Part shown: piece after piece, positions 7,923 to 32,055 of the stretch
Numbering within the stretch: position 1 is the first letter of the stretch
Layout of the letters: every line of letters begins with the position of its first letter
Source: Thermoanaerobaculum aquaticum
Lineage (GTDB): Bacteria; Acidobacteriota; Thermoanaerobaculia; Thermoanaerobaculales; Thermoanaerobaculaceae
NCBI RefSeq assembly: GCF_000687145.1
Contig: NZ_JMFG01000016.1
Location: forward strand, 75,748 to 114,626
Direction of reading: 5' to 3'
DNA length: 38,879 bases
Program-made: the position numbers and the translations under genes
Notes under the pieces: model-generated
What the model was told of the DNA's origin: nothing
Database searches by the model: none
The model's input: the letters and a program-made list of their open reading frames with translations, nothing else

Positions 7923-9596
7923 ATGGCCAGCGAGCTGAGACTGGAAGACCTGAGTTACATCCCGTTTTCCGAAAAGCCCACCACCGCCATCAAAACCGGG
8001 ACCTGGAAGTACGTGGAGCCGGTGTACCGCAATGCGCTCCCGCCCTGTGCCGCCACCTGTCCCGCCGGCAACGATATTTCCTACGGCTTGTTGCTGCTTG
8101 CAAAGGGACAGGTGCTGGACGCTGCCCGCTGGTGGCGGCGTCGCAACCCAATTCCCGCGACTCTGGGGCGGGTATGCCCTCACCCATGCGAAGGCCCCTG
8201 TAACCGGGAGCACCTGGGCGGTGCCATTGCCATCCACATGGTGGAGCGGTTTTTGGGGGACGTGGAAGGGGACGTGCTGCCGCCACCGGCCCCTGCCACC
8301 GGCAAGAAGGTGGCGGTGGTGGGTTCCGGGCCCGCTGGTCTCGCGGCCGCTTACAACCTGCGTCTTTCCGGTCACGAGGTGCACGTTTTTGACGACAAGC
8401 CCGCTCCAGGCGGGTACCTCCGCACGGGCATCCCGGAGTACCGGTTGCCCCGCCCGGTGCTGGACCGAGAGGTGGGGATGATTGAAAGCCTGGGTGTGGT
8501 CTTCCATCAGGGTGTTCGGGTGGGCCGCGATATTTCGTTCGATGCCCTTCGGTCTTCTCACGATGCGGTCATCCTGGCCCTGGGCCTGCACCGCAGCCGG
8601 GCTCTGGGGATCCCCGGAGAGGATCACCCCCGGGTGTACAACGGAGTGAAGCTCTTGGAGCAGCTGTTGGCCGGGGAGCGGCCGCCCCTGCCCCGCCGTA
8701 TGGCGGTGGTGGGGGGTGGCAACACCGCCATGGACGTGGCCCGGAGTCTGCTGCGGGTGGGGGTGGAGCCGGTGGTGGTGTACCGGCGGACTCGGGCGGA
8801 AATGCCGGCCATTGCCTCGGAAGTGGAGGATGCCCTCGCGGAAGGCATTCCCTTCGAGTTTTTAGCAGCGCCGGTGCGGGTTCTGATTGAAAATGACGCC
8901 ATTGTCGGCCTGGAATGCCAGCGCATGCAGTTGGGGGAGCCCGACGCTTCCGGCCGAAGGCGTCCGCTGCCCATCCCCGGCAGCGAGTTCGTGGTTCCCT
9001 GCCAGGGGGTGGTCACTGCCCTGGGGGAAGAGGTGGACCTGGAGGGCTTGCCGTCCAACTTAGGGGCCGGCGACGCCCGCCAAGCCGCGGCCCTGCCGGG
9101 GGTTTTTGTGGCGGGCGACATGGCCGATGGGGCGGGAACGGTGACCGCCGCGGTGGGTTCGGGGATCCGCGTGGCGGCGGTGGTGCACGCGTACCTTCAG
9201 AGCGGGAATTTGCCGGAAAAGGCTCCCGCTGTGCCGGAGCTTTGGCCCCGGGAGGTGGCGCAAGACCGCAAGGTGGAATTTGCCAACCTCAACACCGCGT
9301 ACCTCCGTCCGGCTCCGCGACCGGCTGTGAGCCATTTGCCGCCGGATCAGCGTCGCACAAGCTTTTCGGAAGTGGTTCAGGGCTGGAGTGAGGAAGCGGC
9401 GGTGCAGGAAGCGCGGCGGTGTTTTGCCTGCGGGACCTGCAACGAGTGCTCGAACTGCCTGTACTTTTGCCCGGATGTGGCCATCCACCGGGTAAACGGC
9501 GGCTTCTCCATTGATAGGGAGCACTGCAAGGGGTGCGGGATTTGCGTGCAGGAATGCCCGCGCTCGGCGTTGGAGCTGCGCGAGGTGACGCGATGA
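7923..9596 (+). CDS. GltD-like FAD/NAD(P) oxidoreductase fused to 2x[4Fe-4S] delta domain
   Basis: 557 aa with three modules. Residues about 30-110 form the Fe-S domain found at the start of GltD-type proteins, with Cys42, 46, 85, 89 and 93 (NPIPATLGRVCPHPCEGPC). Residues about 128-440 are a two-dinucleotide flavoprotein: GSGPAGL at 134-140 for FAD and GGGNTA at 264-269 followed by VVVYRR for NAD(P)H. The C-terminus, residues 500-545, is a bacterial ferredoxin with CxxCxxCxxxCP (506-516) and a second set at 535-545; Cys500 and Cys503 are extra. In the operon it replaces the plain PorD ferredoxin. It could pass electrons from oxoacid oxidation to NAD(P)+ as well as to ferredoxin. The direction of flow is inferred. 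Confidence 0.9.
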   Translation: MASELRLEDLSYIPFSEKPTTAIKTGTWKYVEPVYRNALPPCAATCPAGNDISYGLLLLAKGQVLDAARWWRRRNPIPATLGRVCPHPCEGPCNREHLGGAIAIHMVERFLGDVEGDVLPPPAPATGKKVAVVGSGPAGLAAAYNLRLSGHEVHVFDDKPAPGGYLRTGIPEYRLPRPVLDREVGMIESLGVVFHQGVRVGRDISFDALRSSHDAVILALGLHRSRALGIPGEDHPRVYNGVKLLEQLLAGERPPLPRRMAVVGGGNTAMDVARSLLRVGVEPVVVYRRTRAEMPAIASEVEDALAEGIPFEFLAAPVRVLIENDAIVGLECQRMQLGEPDASGRRRPLPIPGSEFVVPCQGVVTALGEEVDLEGLPSNLGAGDARQAAALPGVFVAGDMADGAGTVTAAVGSGIRVAAVVHAYLQSGNLPEKAPAVPELWPREVAQDRKVEFANLNTAYLRPAPRPAVSHLPPDQRRTSFSEVVQGWSEEAAVQEARRCFACGTCNECSNCLYFCPDVAIHRVNGGFSIDREHCKGCGICVQECPRSALELREVTR

Positions 9597-10783
9597 AAAC
9601 CGTAATCAAGGGAAACAGCGCGGTGGCTCATGGGGTGAGGTTGGCTCGGGCCCAGGTCATTGCTGCCTACCCCATCACCCCCCAAACCTCCATCATTGAG
9701 GATTTAGCTTCCTTTGTGGCCCAGGGGCAGCTGAAAGCCACCTTTGTCAAGGTGGAATCCGAGCATTCGGCGCTGGCCGCGTGCATTGGCGCGGCGTCGG
9801 CGGGGGCGCGGGTGTTCACCGCTACCTCCGCCCAAGGCCTGGCCCTCATGCACGAGCTGATCCACTGGGCGGCGGGGGCCCGCTTGCCCATCGTGCTGGC
9901 CGATGTGAACCGTGCCATGGCCCCGGGGTGGTCCATTTGGACCGATCAAAACGACAGCTTGTCCCAAAGGGACACCGGTTGGATGCAGGTGTACTGCGCC
10001 TCTTCCCAGGAGGTTCTGGATTCGGTGGTGCAGGCCTACAAGGTTTCGGAAAAGGTCCTGCTGCCCACCATGATCGTGCTGGACGCCTTTTTCCTCTCCC
10101 ACACCCACGAGGTGGTGGATGTTCCTGAGCAGGAGCTGGTGGACCGCTTCTTACCGCCGCTTTCTTTGCCCTTGAAGCTGGACGTGGAGCGTCCCGGCGC
10201 CTTTGGCAACTTGGTGTTTCCCGATCGCTACATGGAGTTCCGCTACAAGATCGAGCTGGCCCACCGCGAGGCGCTGGAGGTTTGGCGGCAGGTGGACCAG
10301 GAGTGGGGCCGCCTCACCGGCCGTTCCTACGGGCTGGTGGAGGGCTACCGGCTGGAAGACGCCGACACCGTGCTGCTCACCGCCGGCACGCCAGCATCTA
10401 CGGCCCGGGTGGCGGTGGACCAGCTGCGGGCGGAAGGCGTTGCGGCCGGCGTTTTGCGGTTGCGGGTTTTCCGGCCGTTTCCGGCGGAAGAGCTGGCCCG
10501 GCATCTGGCAGGACGCCGGCGGGTGGTGGTTTTGGACCGCAACTGCTCCTACGGTCACCACGGGATCTTTCATCAGGAAACCAAATCCGCCCTTTACGAG
10601 CTGCCCGAGCGCCGGCGCCCGCAGCTTTTCGGGGTAATTGCCGGGCTGGGTGGTCGGGACATTACGGTGAGCGACCTTGCGGAAATACTTCGCAAAGCCT
10701 CCCGCAGTGAGCTGGCCCCCGTCTCCTGGTGGAACGTTCTGCAGCCCGAGGAGGAGCTGGAAGCCGCGGTGGCTTCCAAGTGA
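9593..10783 (+). CDS. 2-oxoacid:ferredoxin oxidoreductase, alpha subunit
   Basis: 396 aa. It opens with the pyrimidine-binding domain I motif YPITPQTSIIEDLA, then VESEHSALAACIGAASAGARVFTATSAQGL, and later the transketolase C-like domain II (VLLTAGTPASTARVAVDQLR). These are the normal features of POR/VOR alpha subunits. The ATG at 9593 overlaps the previous stop (ATGA). The open frame extends upstream, but that part is the other gene read out of frame. It pairs with the beta subunit at 10791 to form the thiamine diphosphate active site. Confidence 0.93.
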   Translation: MKTVIKGNSAVAHGVRLARAQVIAAYPITPQTSIIEDLASFVAQGQLKATFVKVESEHSALAACIGAASAGARVFTATSAQGLALMHELIHWAAGARLPIVLADVNRAMAPGWSIWTDQNDSLSQRDTGWMQVYCASSQEVLDSVVQAYKVSEKVLLPTMIVLDAFFLSHTHEVVDVPEQELVDRFLPPLSLPLKLDVERPGAFGNLVFPDRYMEFRYKIELAHREALEVWRQVDQEWGRLTGRSYGLVEGYRLEDADTVLLTAGTPASTARVAVDQLRAEGVAAGVLRLRVFRPFPAEELARHLAGRRRVVVLDRNCSYGHHGIFHQETKSALYELPERRRPQLFGVIAGLGGRDITVSDLAEILRKASRSELAPVSWWNVLQPEEELEAAVASK

Positions 10784-26413: not shown

Positions 26414-27670
26414 GTGCCGCCGTTTCCGGTTTCGCCGCAGGCTTGGCAGCTTCTGTTGGTGCTGGGACTGGCGTTTCTTCTGGGCCTGGAGCGGGAGGGG
26501 CGCAAGGCCACCGCGGGGCACTACATCTTTGGGGGGGTTAGAACCTTCCCGTTAATTGGTTTTCTAGGCTACGGGATTGCGCTTTTGGCCGGTTCCCAGG
26601 TGCTCCCCGTGCTGTTGGGCTTTCTGGGTGTGGCGGCGTTTCTGGCCATTTCCTACTGGCACAAAATCACCCACGTGGGGGAAGCGGGGGTCACCACCGA
26701 GGTCACCGGGCTTTTGACCTACGTGCTGGGCAGCCTGGTGGCTTTTGGTTGGTACTGGCTGGCCACGGCGTTGGTGGTGCTGAGCCTGCTGCTTTTGGAG
26801 CTCAAGGCCGGGTTGGAGAACCTGGCAGAACGCATCCCCTCCTCGGAGATCCTGACGCTTACCAAGTTCTTGCTGCTCACCGCGGTGATCTTGCCGCTGG
26901 TGCCCAACCGTTCCTTCACCGAGTTTGGCATCAACCCCTTCCGCCTCTGGTTGGTGGTGGTGGCGGTGAGTGGCCTTTCGTACCTTTCCTACTTGATTCA
27001 GTGGCGGTTGGGGGAAAGGGCCAGCATTGCCTCTTCTGCCATTTTGGGCGGGATTTACTCCTCCACGCTGGCCACCGTCATCCTGGCTCGCCGTTCCCGG
27101 GAGCTGGCCGGCGGGTCCAGCTATGCGGCGGCGGTGGTGCTGGCCAGCTCGGTGATGTACCTGCGGGTGCTGGTGTTGCTGCAGCTTTTTCAACCTGCCC
27201 TGGCTTCGGCCTTGGCCGTGCCGCTTTTGGGCTTGGCTCTCGTAGGCTCGGCCCTGGCCTTGGTTTGGCTTTCCCGGGCTTCCGGACGGCAGGTGCAGCC
27301 GGAAAACCCTCGGGCTACCGTCAACCCCCTGGAGCTTTCCACGGCTTTCCTGTTTGCCGGTGTGTTTCTCGTGCTCACGGTAGGCACCTGGTGGGTCACA
27401 AGGCTTTGGGGTGATGTGGGGGTTTACGCGTTTTCGCTTTTGGCCGGTGCGGTGGATGTGGATCCTTACGTGATGAGCCTGGCCCAGCAAGCGGGTTTGG
27501 GCGTTGCTCTGCCCACGGCTGCCCGCGCGGTGCTGCTGGCCCTTTCGGGAAACCAGCTGGCCAAGGGGATTTACGCGCTGGTTTTGGGCCACCGGCCCAT
27601 GGGGCGGGCGGCCTTAGGCGGGTTAGTTTTTCTTTCGCTTTTGGGTCTTTTGCCGCTCCTGTGGCTTTAG
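26414..27670 (+). CDS. MgtC/SapB-DUF4010 family membrane protein
   Basis: 418 aa, about 11-12 membrane helices. The N-terminal part has the MgtC-like GLAFLLGLEREGRK and GGVRTFPLIGFLGY. The larger second part contains the DUF4010 features ILTLTKFLLLTAVILPLVPNRSFTEFGINPFRLW and LGGIYSSTLATVILARRS. The GTG start at 26414 follows GGGGGAGG. Function is unknown for the family; transport or ion homeostasis is only a guess. Its stop overlaps the convergent iorB stop. Confidence 0.85.
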   Translation: MPPFPVSPQAWQLLLVLGLAFLLGLEREGRKATAGHYIFGGVRTFPLIGFLGYGIALLAGSQVLPVLLGFLGVAAFLAISYWHKITHVGEAGVTTEVTGLLTYVLGSLVAFGWYWLATALVVLSLLLLELKAGLENLAERIPSSEILTLTKFLLLTAVILPLVPNRSFTEFGINPFRLWLVVVAVSGLSYLSYLIQWRLGERASIASSAILGGIYSSTLATVILARRSRELAGGSSYAAAVVLASSVMYLRVLVLLQLFQPALASALAVPLLGLALVGSALALVWLSRASGRQVQPENPRATVNPLELSTAFLFAGVFLVLTVGTWWVTRLWGDVGVYAFSLLAGAVDVDPYVMSLAQQAGLGVALPTAARAVLLALSGNQLAKGIYALVLGHRPMGRAALGGLVFLSLLGLLPLLWL

Positions 27671-28272
27671 CCTGCGGGGCTCACCGCTTGCCGGCCCAAC
27701 TGAAAAGCCTTGCGGTTGAGCTCCAAAAACTTCGCCGGGATGCGGCGCTCCAAACAGGCCCACCACACCTCCTCGGGAAGCGGCAAGAGCTTAGAAACCG
27801 CCCCCAAAAGCACGACGTTGGCGGCCTTCACGTTACCCGCTTGTTTGGCCAGGGCTTCCCCGGGGATGCGCAGCAACCTGGCGTTTAAAGCCGCCATGGC
27901 TTGCTCCAGCGCCCCATCCTCAGGGTAGGGCACACCCCCTACCGTGACGGTAATGGGCAAAAGCTCCATGTCGTTAACCAGGGCCGTGCCGCCGGCGCGC
28001 AGGTACTCGGCAAAGCGCAGGGCCTCCAGCTTTTCGAAGGCAATGAGCAGGTCGGCCTCTTGCAGGCCCACCAGCGGGGAAAAGACCTGCTGGGCGTTCC
28101 AGCGCACGTGGGAAATCACGCTCCCACCGCGCTGGGACATACCGTGAACTTCTGCCTTCTTCACGTCGAAGCCGGCCTCCATCCCCACCTCCGCCAGAAT
28201 GTGCGAGGCGAGGATGGTGCCTTGCCCACCCACCCCAACCAACACGAAGTTAAAAGCTTTTTGGCCGCTCAT
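27667..28272 (-). CDS. iorB: Indolepyruvate:ferredoxin oxidoreductase, beta subunit
   Basis: 201 aa, the small subunit that resembles the POR gamma domain. The N-terminus has FVLVGVGGQGTILASHILAE, followed by KKAEVHGMSQRGGSVISHVRW, both diagnostic for IorB. The ATG at 28272 overlaps the iorA TGA by one base and is preceded by GGAG at 8 bases. A GTG one codon upstream is possible. With IorA it converts aryl-pyruvates, formed by transamination of Trp, Phe and Tyr, to aryl-acetyl-CoA and reduced ferredoxin. Confidence 0.93.
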   Translation of the reverse strand: MSGQKAFNFVLVGVGGQGTILASHILAEVGMEAGFDVKKAEVHGMSQRGGSVISHVRWNAQQVFSPLVGLQEADLLIAFEKLEALRFAEYLRAGGTALVNDMELLPITVTVGGVPYPEDGALEQAMAALNARLLRIPGEALAKQAGNVKAANVVLLGAVSKLLPLPEEVWWACLERRIPAKFLELNRKAFQLGRQAVSPAG

Positions 28273-30074
28273 CACCGTGTCTCCAGAGCCACCTGCTCAC
28301 GGGTGAGGATGGCTTCATGAGGACAGAGCTGGGCGCACACCTCGCAGCCGGTGCAGAGGTCGGGATCAATAAGCGCCAGCGGCTTGTGGGTCTTGGGATC
28401 CAGCTCGTCGCTCTTGAGAAGGGCCGGACAGCCAATGCGGAAGCACACCCCGCAGCCGGTGCATTTCTCCTCCACCACTTCCAGGGGAACCCACGTCTTG
28501 CGTTCCTCGGGAAGCAAGGCGCAGGCGTGGCGGGCCACCAGCACCGCCGGTTCGTTGGTGGCCATGAGCGCTTTGAACGCCTCTTCCAAGGCTTCGGTGT
28601 CGTAGGCTTCCACGGTGGCCACCTTTTGAATGCCGAAAGCCCGGGCAATGGCTTCAAAGTCCAACGCTGGCGCCGGCTCTCCTTGCAAGGTCAAGCCCGT
28701 TCCCGGGTTAGGCTGGTGGCCGGTCATGCCGGTGGTGCGGTTGTCGAGGATGATGGTGAGCACGTTGGAGCGGTTGTAGGCCACGTTGGCCAACGCCGGA
28801 AGGCCGGTGTGGAAAAAGGTGGAATCGCCCAGCACCGCCACCATCCTTTCGGAAATCCCGGCTTTGGCTGCCCCGTGGGCTACGCCAATGGAGGCCCCCA
28901 TGCATCCGCAGAAGTGCAGGGCCGAGAGGGGAGGGAGGTAGCCCAGGGTGTAGCAGCCAATATCCCCCGAAACCGGAACTTTCTTTTTCGCCAAAAGCGC
29001 AAACACGCTACGGTGCGGGCACCCAGGGCAAAGCACCGGTGGCCTGGCCGGGAGCTGGGGTTTTTCTAGCTGCGGGGGAGGAAGCGGCTGGCGGTCCACC
29101 GGCAAGCCGGCTTCGGCACCCCTTTCCCGCACCACGGTGGGGTCCAGCTCACCACAAAGCGGGAAGATGCTTTTCCCGTCGCAGGGGATCCCCAGGAGCT
29201 TGACCTGCTCCTCGATGACCGGGTCCAGCTCCTCAAGGACCACCAGCCGCTTTACCCGCGAGGCAAAGGCCTTGATGCCTTGCGCCGGTACCGGGTAGGT
29301 GAGGCCCAGCTTCAAAATGGAAGCGCTAGGGAAAACCTCCCGGGCGTACTGGTAGGCAACACCGGAGGTGATGATCCCCACGCTTTCATCACGCCACTCC
29401 ATCACCGTGGGGCTTTCCTCGCTGTCAGCCCACGCCGCGATTTGCTTAGTGCGTTCTTCCACCACGGGGTGGCGGTGGCGGGCGTTAGCCGGCACCATCA
29501 CGTACTTTTCCGGGCGACGGGGAAACTTGTCGCGCCTGGGCGGCAGCTCGACGCGCTCCCCCAGGCTCACGATGCTGGAGGAATGGTTGATGCGGGTGGT
29601 GGTTCGCACCATGACCGGCGTGTCAAAGCGCTCGGAGAGCTCAAAGGCCAAGCGCATGAAGTCCTTGCACTCCTGGGAAGAGCTGGGCTCCAAACAGGGG
29701 ATGCGGGCGAAGGCCGCGAGGCGCCGGTTGTCCTGCTCGTTTTGAGAGGAGTGCATGGCCGGGTCATCGGCGGAAACCAGCACCAGCCCTGCTTCCAGGC
29801 CGGTGTACGAAGCGTACATGAGGGCGTCCATGGCCACGTTAACCCCCACGTGCTTCATGGCCGCCAGGGCCCGCCGGCCGGCCAGTGCTGCCCCCACCGC
29901 CACATCCAGCGCTACCTTTTCGTTGGTGGACCACTCGGCGTAGACCCCAGGAAGGCGGGCCAGCTCTTCCAAAAGCTCGGTGGAGGGGGTTCCGGGGTAT
30001 GCGGCAGCCACCTGCACCCCGGCTTCCCAAGCTCCCCGCGCCAGTGCCTCGTTGCCAGAAAGAATGCGCCGCAT
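28272..30074 (-). CDS. iorA: Indolepyruvate:ferredoxin oxidoreductase, alpha subunit
   Basis: 600 aa from the ATG at 30074, which follows GGAGGAG at 7 bases; the frame is open further but that is leader. The pyrimidine domain has AAAYPGTPSTELLEEL at the start. CPGCPHRSVF is at 349-358 and the thiamine diphosphate motif begins at GDST (416) and runs to the NRTTGMTG segment. The C-terminal ferredoxin holds Cys538, 541, 544, 549 (C-x2-C-x2-C-x4-CP) and Cys574, 577, 580, 584. All features match IorA, the thiamine and Fe-S subunit for aromatic amino acid breakdown. It has a promoter and a 225-base leader upstream. Confidence 0.94.
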   Translation of the reverse strand: MRRILSGNEALARGAWEAGVQVAAAYPGTPSTELLEELARLPGVYAEWSTNEKVALDVAVGAALAGRRALAAMKHVGVNVAMDALMYASYTGLEAGLVLVSADDPAMHSSQNEQDNRRLAAFARIPCLEPSSSQECKDFMRLAFELSERFDTPVMVRTTTRINHSSSIVSLGERVELPPRRDKFPRRPEKYVMVPANARHRHPVVEERTKQIAAWADSEESPTVMEWRDESVGIITSGVAYQYAREVFPSASILKLGLTYPVPAQGIKAFASRVKRLVVLEELDPVIEEQVKLLGIPCDGKSIFPLCGELDPTVVRERGAEAGLPVDRQPLPPPQLEKPQLPARPPVLCPGCPHRSVFALLAKKKVPVSGDIGCYTLGYLPPLSALHFCGCMGASIGVAHGAAKAGISERMVAVLGDSTFFHTGLPALANVAYNRSNVLTIILDNRTTGMTGHQPNPGTGLTLQGEPAPALDFEAIARAFGIQKVATVEAYDTEALEEAFKALMATNEPAVLVARHACALLPEERKTWVPLEVVEEKCTGCGVCFRIGCPALLKSDELDPKTHKPLALIDPDLCTGCEVCAQLCPHEAILTREQVALETR

Positions 30075-30300
30075 TGCGCTTCTCCTCCCGCGGGATGGTA
30101 CCAGGCCTTTTAAGCCCGGGTTAGCTTTCCGCCGGTGACAGGAAGGCGGAAAAAGAAAAGGCCCCGACGGGGAGGGCTTTTTGGCTTTCAGGAGGTCTTG
30201 GGGGGAGGACCAACGCCTGGAAGCCCGGAAGGACCCCGTCGGGGGGGCTTGCGTTCGCGTTTGTGTCAAAGTTCCAGCAATAATACGTGACTCTCTTCAC
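30075..30300 (-). promoter_or_regulatory. Structured leader of iorA, candidate attenuator
   Basis: The 5' leader is about 225 bases. Element A (CCCCGACGGGG on the transcript, 30244-30234) and element B (CCCCGUCGGGG, 30172-30162) are exact 11-base complements. Each can also fold alone as a 4-bp hairpin. Between them lies a stem with the pairs GGCUU/AAGCC, CAGG/CCUG and GGUC/GACC. B is followed by a U-rich tract. A UCCUCCC loop sequence (30209-30203) could also pair with the ribosome site at 30089-30083. No known riboswitch class was recognised. Confidence 0.5.
30148..30172 (-). terminator. Candidate intrinsic terminator inside the iorA leader
   Basis: On the transcript, CCCC-GUC-GGGG is followed by CCUUUUCUUUUU. 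An alternative AAAAAGCCCU/GGGGCCUUUU pairing is also possible. Element B of the leader forms the stem, so pairing with element A would prevent it. Confidence 0.4.
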
Positions 30301-30302
30301 AA
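30285..30302. promoter_or_regulatory. GTGA-N6-TCAC repeat at the iorA start site
   Basis: GTGA (30287-30290), CTCTCT, TCAC (30297-30300). The half TTCACAA (30296-30302) is a perfect Rex half-site; the other half (ACGTGAC) is diverged. It overlaps the predicted +1 of iorA, the same place as in the hydrogenase operon. Confidence 0.4.
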
Positions 30303-30306
30303 GCAC

Positions 30307-30335
30307 AGTATAAGACCCAGGGGGATTTCTGACAA
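30307..30335 (-). promoter_or_regulatory. iorA promoter
   Basis: On the minus strand TTGTCA (30335-30330) and TATACT (30312-30307) are spaced by 17 bases, both with strong consensus matches. Predicted start is near 30300. The promoter is back to back with that of ribH. Confidence 0.7.
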
Positions 30336-31291: not shown

Positions 31292-32055
31292 TCTTTTTTG
31301 CGGTCCTTTTTGCTTTCATTACCGGATCTGCATTTGCAGACCAACTTCAGCTGGAGATGCCGGTGGGGCTTGCCGCCAGGGTCATTGCCGGACCTACCTG
31401 GGACGGTGCGGTAACCCTGGAGCCCAAGGATGCGCTGTCGGTGAGGGTCACGGTGGAGGCTCGCCTCCGCGGTGGCTCTTGGCAAACCGCCAGCCCCTCG
31501 CAGGGAGACAAGCCGTTCCCGGAGGCCACCAGCGTGGAGCGTTTGCTGCCCTTGCCCAGGGAACTTGCCGGTTTTGAAAAGGCCTCGCCCTGGGAAAAAC
31601 TGGTGGGCACGGTGCTTTGGGTTTCCCGCCACGTGCGGCTCGTGGAAGACGACCGGGGCTTGCAGGACGCGGCCTCGGTCCTCGCCCGGCGGGTGGGGCG
31701 TTGCTCGGGTCGCGCGAACCTCGCGGTGGCGCTGCTTCGGCAAATGGGCGTGCCGGCACGGGTGGTCCACGGGCTTTTGCTGCGCCCCGACGGGGCGGTA
31801 TGGCACCGCTGGGGGGAAGCGTGTCTTCCCAACGCAGGCTGGCGGCCCTTCGATCCCGGCGTAGCCGTGGGGGCGGTGGGGGTTCGATACCTGCCCATCG
31901 TGGGGGCCGACGAGAGTGTGCCGCTGGCGGGCCTGAAGGTGGTGTCGGTAGCCGAATGGGAGTTTGCCCACCTCCCGCGGGTCCAGGGCTTGCGTGTGGC
32001 GTTGCCCCGTTGGGTGCCGCCATTCTTGGCGGCCTGGGGAAAGGAGGGGCTATGA
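31288..32055 (+). CDS. Secreted transglutaminase-like (papain-fold) protein
   Basis: 255 aa with an N-terminal signal peptide (FFAVLFAFITGSAFA). The catalytic triad of the transglutaminase core is visible: Cys139 in GRCSGRANLAVALLRQMGVPAR, His173 in VWHRWGEACLPNAGW and Asp189 in RPFDPG. Bacterial members are usually proteases or cross-linkers of unknown substrate. It is translationally coupled to nusB and to the next gene. Nothing obvious connects it to riboflavin or transcription. Confidence 0.82.
   Translation: MIFFAVLFAFITGSAFADQLQLEMPVGLAARVIAGPTWDGAVTLEPKDALSVRVTVEARLRGGSWQTASPSQGDKPFPEATSVERLLPLPRELAGFEKASPWEKLVGTVLWVSRHVRLVEDDRGLQDAASVLARRVGRCSGRANLAVALLRQMGVPARVVHGLLLRPDGAVWHRWGEACLPNAGWRPFDPGVAVGAVGVRYLPIVGADESVPLAGLKVVSVAEWEFAHLPRVQGLRVALPRWVPPFLAAWGKEGL

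Follow-up and report, generated by a model that had tools for sequence, protein, structure and literature searches.

Indolepyruvate:ferredoxin oxidoreductase of Thermoanaerobaculum aquaticum is encoded by iorA (alpha subunit) and iorB (beta subunit), which lie in the stretch of DNA analyzed here, 38,879 nucleotides (nt) of contig NZ_JMFG01000016.1 (the window). The present analysis concerns the 226-nt leader directly upstream of iorA, in which two 11-base elements, A and B (CCCCGTCGGGG and CCCCGACGGGG on the plus strand), match each other exactly as reverse complements across a gap of 61 bases. Immediately after B, as read on the minus strand, comes CC TTTTCTTTTT, a U-rich tract. A first-pass annotation, made from the sequence alone, had pointed out the two elements and the tract, and these were confirmed as described, with their positions and spacing; both arms are near-palindromic and, as had been claimed, each is able to fold by itself, at -4.5 kcal/mol. 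A third copy of CCCCGACGGGG at 31785 was regarded as chance, and the complementary 11-mer CTTGGGGGGAG occurs exactly at three more sites in the genome, apparently within genes and at none of them at a ribosome site. The features of the locus are listed in Table 1.

Table 1. Features of the iorAB locus, in window coordinates
Feature	Coordinates	Strand	Basis
Predicted promoter: -35 TTGTCA (30335-30330), 17-nt spacer, -10 TATACT (30312-30307)	30307..30335	-	prediction and conservation
Rex-type operator TTGTGAAGAGAGTCACG; the predicted +1 (about 30300) falls within it	30286..30302	-	sequence; in this genus, one of the arms is degenerate
5' spacer of the predicted transcript, not conserved	30245..30285	-	leader alignment
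Element A, 5' arm of P1	30234..30244	-	sequence, folds, homologue comparison
5' arm of P2 (GGCUUCCAGG)	30216..30225	-	fold; sequence unlike other genera, pairing kept
P3 hairpin GGUC-CUCCCCCCAA-GACC with C-rich apical loop	30194..30211	-	fold and conservation
Putative seed GGUCCUCCCCCCAAGACCUCCU, complementary to the M28 peptidase mRNA at its ribosome site and start codon	30190..30211	-	search, duplex energies, co-folds
3' arm of P2 (CCUGAAAGCC)	30183..30192	-	fold
Element B, 3' arm of P1	30162..30172	-	sequence, folds, homologue comparison
U-rich tract at the end of the intrinsic terminator; predicted RNA 3' end	30150..30161	-	sequence, terminator scan, homologues
Weak -10-like hexamer TACCAT, perhaps part of a separate promoter for iorA	30095..30100	-	inspection
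iorA, indolepyruvate:ferredoxin oxidoreductase alpha subunit	28272..30074	-	TIGR03336, 688 bits, above cut-off
iorB, beta subunit	27667..28275	-	NF005322, above cut-off

A terminator scan of this genome placed a terminator-like site at 30177-30161 and returned 6 sites against 5.1 expected, which is chance level, and the 226-nt leader folded moderately better than its shuffles (z = -1.55), so neither result is significant in one genome. For the 101-nt segment from A to the U-rich tract, z was -3.5, and none of 200 shuffles folded as well. What settled the reality of the element was its conservation across 14 genomes. The homologue set comprised 17 Thermoanaerobaculaceae (Acidobacteriota) genomes, G000 being that of the window; 14 of them carry a close iorA homologue, and the element lies directly upstream of it on the same strand in all 14, with one copy per genome. 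The three family genomes lacking such a homologue gave no covariance-model match to the RNA. When 149 genomes of the class were scanned with the covariance model, the element was recovered in this family only, under stricter filters that missed G000 and G002 themselves and that distant versions could escape. A pattern scan of GTDB r220 yielded 13 contigs of this lineage and two matches in Oscillospiraceae, to which the covariance model lent no support. The element was not found in viral contigs, and it does not form a repeat family within the genome, where a search with the leader matched only its own locus and one ribosome site (see below). Rfam searches with the window at the gathering score and with the leader up to an E value of 5 returned nothing credible, in agreement with the earlier statement that no known class could be recognized.

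In nearly all members, the predicted fold is one interrupted hairpin composed of P1 (A:B, 11 to 13 pairs), P2, and P3, with the U-tract following at once; the inner helices of G002 are predicted to fold somewhat differently. The apical loop is CUCCCCCC(C)AAG, and the segment CGUUGGNYCUCCCCCC of P3 and its loop is unchanged in 14 of 14 genomes. Some unpaired nucleotides are conserved, and a bulge conserved in the other genera is absent from Thermoanaerobaculum. The covariance analysis of homologous leaders that the first-pass annotation had proposed revealed compensatory changes in two helices, P1 and P2. Among the 14 homologues, P1 pair 6 is G-C in 11, A-U in 2, and G-U in 1, and pair 7 is U-G or C-G. 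Comparison of P2, done by eye on the predicted folds, showed that two pairs are changed on both sides in G005 (A-U to G-C and G-C to A-U) and that in Thermoanaerobaculum the sequence of the helix is entirely replaced with its pairing retained.

The A:B pairing is the predicted energy minimum in 14 of 14 homologues, and barring it costs 9 to 17 kcal/mol in every one of them. The first-pass annotation had taken this pairing to remove the terminator stem and had seen in it the mutually exclusive folds of an attenuator or riboswitch. We found instead that A:B is the longer stem and itself abuts the U-tract. Since it ends there and is favored everywhere, A:B and the fold of B alone are not a terminator/antiterminator pair, and, with A:B as the terminator stem, the direction of the proposed switch is reversed. 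No antiterminator is conserved, and the 5' part of the leader is unconserved.

In ten aligned leaders, the same order of promoter/operator, unconserved stretch, and hairpin was observed, the -35 TTG, the -10 TA...T, and TTGTGAA...CAC being invariant and their spacing near-constant. Three modules are conserved, namely, a promoter whose spacing is fixed, a Rex-type operator located at the predicted +1, and the hairpin; the linkers diverge, and the interval between the U-tract and iorA varies in length and content among species. Both the loop and the promoter-operator are near-invariant across five genera of the family. A Rex-type site occupies the predicted start site in 14 of 14 genomes, and most of the family's other genera have it as a full TTGTGAA-N4-TTCAC operator. 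The Rex operator has been described as TTGTGAA-W4-TTCACAA (PMC2883068). The sites found here form the same inverted repeat, a Rex-type gene is present in 17 of 17 family genomes (the T. aquaticum copy has both expected domains), and the same operator in the same promoter register precedes a pyruvate:ferredoxin oxidoreductase gene, named from its sequence rather than by profile search, in G012 and G016 (L170, 543-560; L172, 1501-1518). Operator and Rex gene together are what the sequence of a Rex regulon member would be expected to show. The sites differ from the described operator in that the last arm ends in CG and that the site is degenerate in Thermoanaerobaculum; the repeat also resembles the CRP-like TGTGA-N6-TCACA. 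A CRP-like reading, as TGTGA-N6-TCAC, may apply, although the position suits a repressor. Perfect TTGTGAA-N4-TTCACAA sites were also observed near genes that resemble those of an aldehyde dehydrogenase (L174) and a peptidase (L175, L179); at zero mismatches, there are several in G013 and G010 and none or one in most other genomes. A paralogous 2-oxoacid:ferredoxin oxidoreductase alpha-type domain is encoded at 9593-10132 of the window (plus strand; G000:C16:85340-85879).

The one other match to the leader in the genome covers 23 of 24 bases (96% identity, E = 5e-4), and it is in these 24 bases that a gene for an M28 peptidase on contig C25 of G000 has its ribosome site and start codon, oriented such that the peptidase mRNA is complementary to the P3 loop. 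The core of this site is retained in G002. The duplex was calculated at -48.4 kcal/mol, against a lowest value of -32.7 kcal/mol over 392 sampled start regions, and 20 shuffled loops run over the same 392 starts reached -40.7 kcal/mol at the lowest. The background was estimated on 400-kb samples, and the G000 scan deliberately took in the M28 locus.

If the loop acts in trans, the other genera, whose loop is different, would be expected to possess ribosome sites that match that loop. We found that, besides the RNA genes, the closest matches to the complement of that loop in the 17 genomes were sites in G015 (one mismatch) and G013 (two mismatches), and that each of these is the ribosome site of a 4Fe-4S gene, orthologous between the two genomes (about -54 kcal/mol). 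With the pattern reversed as a control, 4 matches were obtained when up to three mismatches were allowed, from which, scaled by the number of possible variants, we estimate that roughly 0.01 one-mismatch matches would be expected in all genomes together. In a 400-kb stretch of G015 chosen to include the target, the duplex stood at -54.2 kcal/mol versus -38.1 kcal/mol for the next of 66,660 windows, and co-folding left the loop-target duplex in place in all four cases. The complementarity extends over ~20 to 25 nt, and each target is an extreme outlier against the background and matches the loop variant of its own lineage; such extended pairing to the ribosome sites of trans-encoded mRNAs, beyond background, is what would be expected of a trans-acting small RNA (sRNA). 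Around the 4Fe-4S gene, TTGAC-N4-GTCAA inverted repeats (FNR/DNR-like) were noticed upstream (L126, L127, L129, L130, L132), and in L122 the gene is followed by a reading frame resembling a multiheme cytochrome. Elsewhere, G012 (L123) has a three-mismatch loop complement ~60 nt upstream of an ATG, possibly in a 5' untranslated region.

We reasoned that the region before iorA is probably a family-restricted sRNA gene that is controlled by Rex and acts in trans through its C-rich loop. This reading is built on conservation, predicted structure, operator, terminator, and complementarity; on that footing, we infer that the RNA is transcribed, answers to Rex, and pairs with and represses its targets in the cell. 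The sRNA would be ~150 nt long, running on the minus strand from 30300 to about 30150, directly before iorA, and the operator at its start site would free it from repression as NADH rises. It would fold as P1, P2, and P3, with P1 and the U-tract serving as an intrinsic terminator, and the loop with the P3 flanks would pair over ~20 to 25 nt with target ribosome sites, most likely blocking translation. Incomplete termination may feed iorAB, in which case the product would be a 5'-leader-derived sRNA, and a role in cis for iorAB is possible. The first-pass annotation had noted that the loop can pair with the ribosome site. The C-rich loop is indeed suited to ribosome sites, but that of iorA is a poor fit (-13 to -22 kcal/mol), whereas those of other genes reach -47 to -54 kcal/mol, and for this reason we favor a trans-acting sRNA over an iorA riboswitch.

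Several observations weigh against the sRNA reading. The RNA was never found away from iorA, as is expected of a cis leader, and the operator is imperfect in the very genus of the window. In some species only ~40 to 45 nt separate the U-tract from iorA, so that a separate iorA promoter could hardly be accommodated. Each lineage yielded only one strong target, not the same from one lineage to the next; among the other 4Fe-4S orthologues, most have just a G-run at the ribosome site (-24 to -34 kcal/mol), so this target is not universal. The second-best duplex in G000, at -44.7 kcal/mol, is antisense inside another gene. Strong duplexes can therefore arise by chance, and energy alone is no proof; the weight of the target argument is borne by ribosome-site position and conservation.

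A cis-acting attenuator or riboswitch of iorAB, in which the A-to-B domain would be an aptamer or protein site and a ligand would shift termination at P1, is unlikely in our assessment. It would account for the invariable place of the element upstream of iorA on the same strand (14 of 14, the position that the first-pass annotation's proposal calls for), for the lack of a match to the RNA in the three genomes that have no close iorA homologue, for unpaired nucleotides conserved as in aptamers, and for the short terminator-to-iorA distance in some species. What has held of that proposal is a conserved, structured RNA with a terminator. The alternative fold is not conserved, as A:B leads by 9 to 17 kcal/mol with no competing conserved fold; Thermoanaerobaculum lacks the bulge that is conserved elsewhere in the family, Rfam has no match, the trans targets fit better, and complementarity to the ribosome sites of unrelated genes would be left unexplained. 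Both functions could be combined if a single Rex-controlled promoter yielded a trans-acting sRNA upon termination and the iorAB mRNA upon read-through. One promoter does stand before both, no clear iorA promoter is seen in G007 and G009, and another ferredoxin oxidoreductase gene has the same operator in two species. However, most other species have a -10-like hexamer, TAGAAT or TACAAT, after the terminator and before iorA, which suggests separate transcription there, and we consider this combination unlikely.

Leader-peptide attenuation is very unlikely. The window does hold a 59-codon open frame (30300-30121, minus strand) that begins with a GTG at the predicted +1 and an aromatic-rich start, VKRVTYYCWNF..., whose codons could sense aromatic amino acids for iorA, and G001 has WW and F nearby. 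Nevertheless, the frames of other species are short and unrelated (11 to 18 codons in several) with no aromatic run, most changes in the first 20 codons within the genus alter the amino acid, and no ribosome site precedes the GTG. As for the possibility that this is simply a terminator-like inverted repeat without regulatory function, the chance-level terminator scan of one genome would agree with it, but a near-invariant loop and promoter-operator over five genera, with diverging linkers, contradict it, so that we give it almost no credence.

Among known systems, compared from open-access papers, the element most recalls RoxS/RsaE of Bacillus subtilis and Staphylococcus, whose C-rich regions pair with G-rich ribosome sites of redox-related targets (PMC5419742, PMC4409812). 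The roxS gene has a Rex site at its start site (PMC5419742), and a Rex-type operator is likewise predicted just downstream of the start site here. The leader, however, showed no RsaE match even at E values up to 5, and it differs in its fold (a single long hairpin with interruptions and just one C-rich loop), in belonging to a different phylum, in its fixed place before iorA, in its very long pairing, and in the small number of targets found. It has a C-rich motif in common with CcsR1 and other CCUCCUCCC-motif sRNAs; membership in the CcsR1 type was rejected at 11.7 bits versus a cut-off of 65.3 (E = 4.2). The NAD+-I riboswitch (nadA motif), a tandem with a ACANCCCC bulge (PMC7297122), is similar in its interrupted stem-loop with a C-rich bulge and its redox-cofactor theme, but there is no Rfam match, and the loop and target evidence favors base pairing. 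As a separate observation, in L007 (1501-1540), 40 bases of the ribH promoter/start region were noticed as a 90% identical copy near a contig end of G002.

A search of a library of open-access papers returned no paper pairing Thermoanaerobaculum with the phrase small RNA. We tentatively suggest that the RNA arose independently of RoxS/RsaE, that it is cut by its own terminator from the leader of a ferredoxin oxidoreductase operon and links ferredoxin-dependent amino acid catabolism to the translation of peptidase and electron-transfer genes, and that its targets have been swapped between lineages with the match of loop and site kept. The target pairs are sharply defined, which makes the idea directly testable. 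If it is true, the element would represent an RNA family not described before, from a lineage that has received little study, and an apparently independent instance of the Rex-plus-C-rich-sRNA design known from RoxS, which would suggest that redox repressors repeatedly recruit sRNAs that block ribosome sites.
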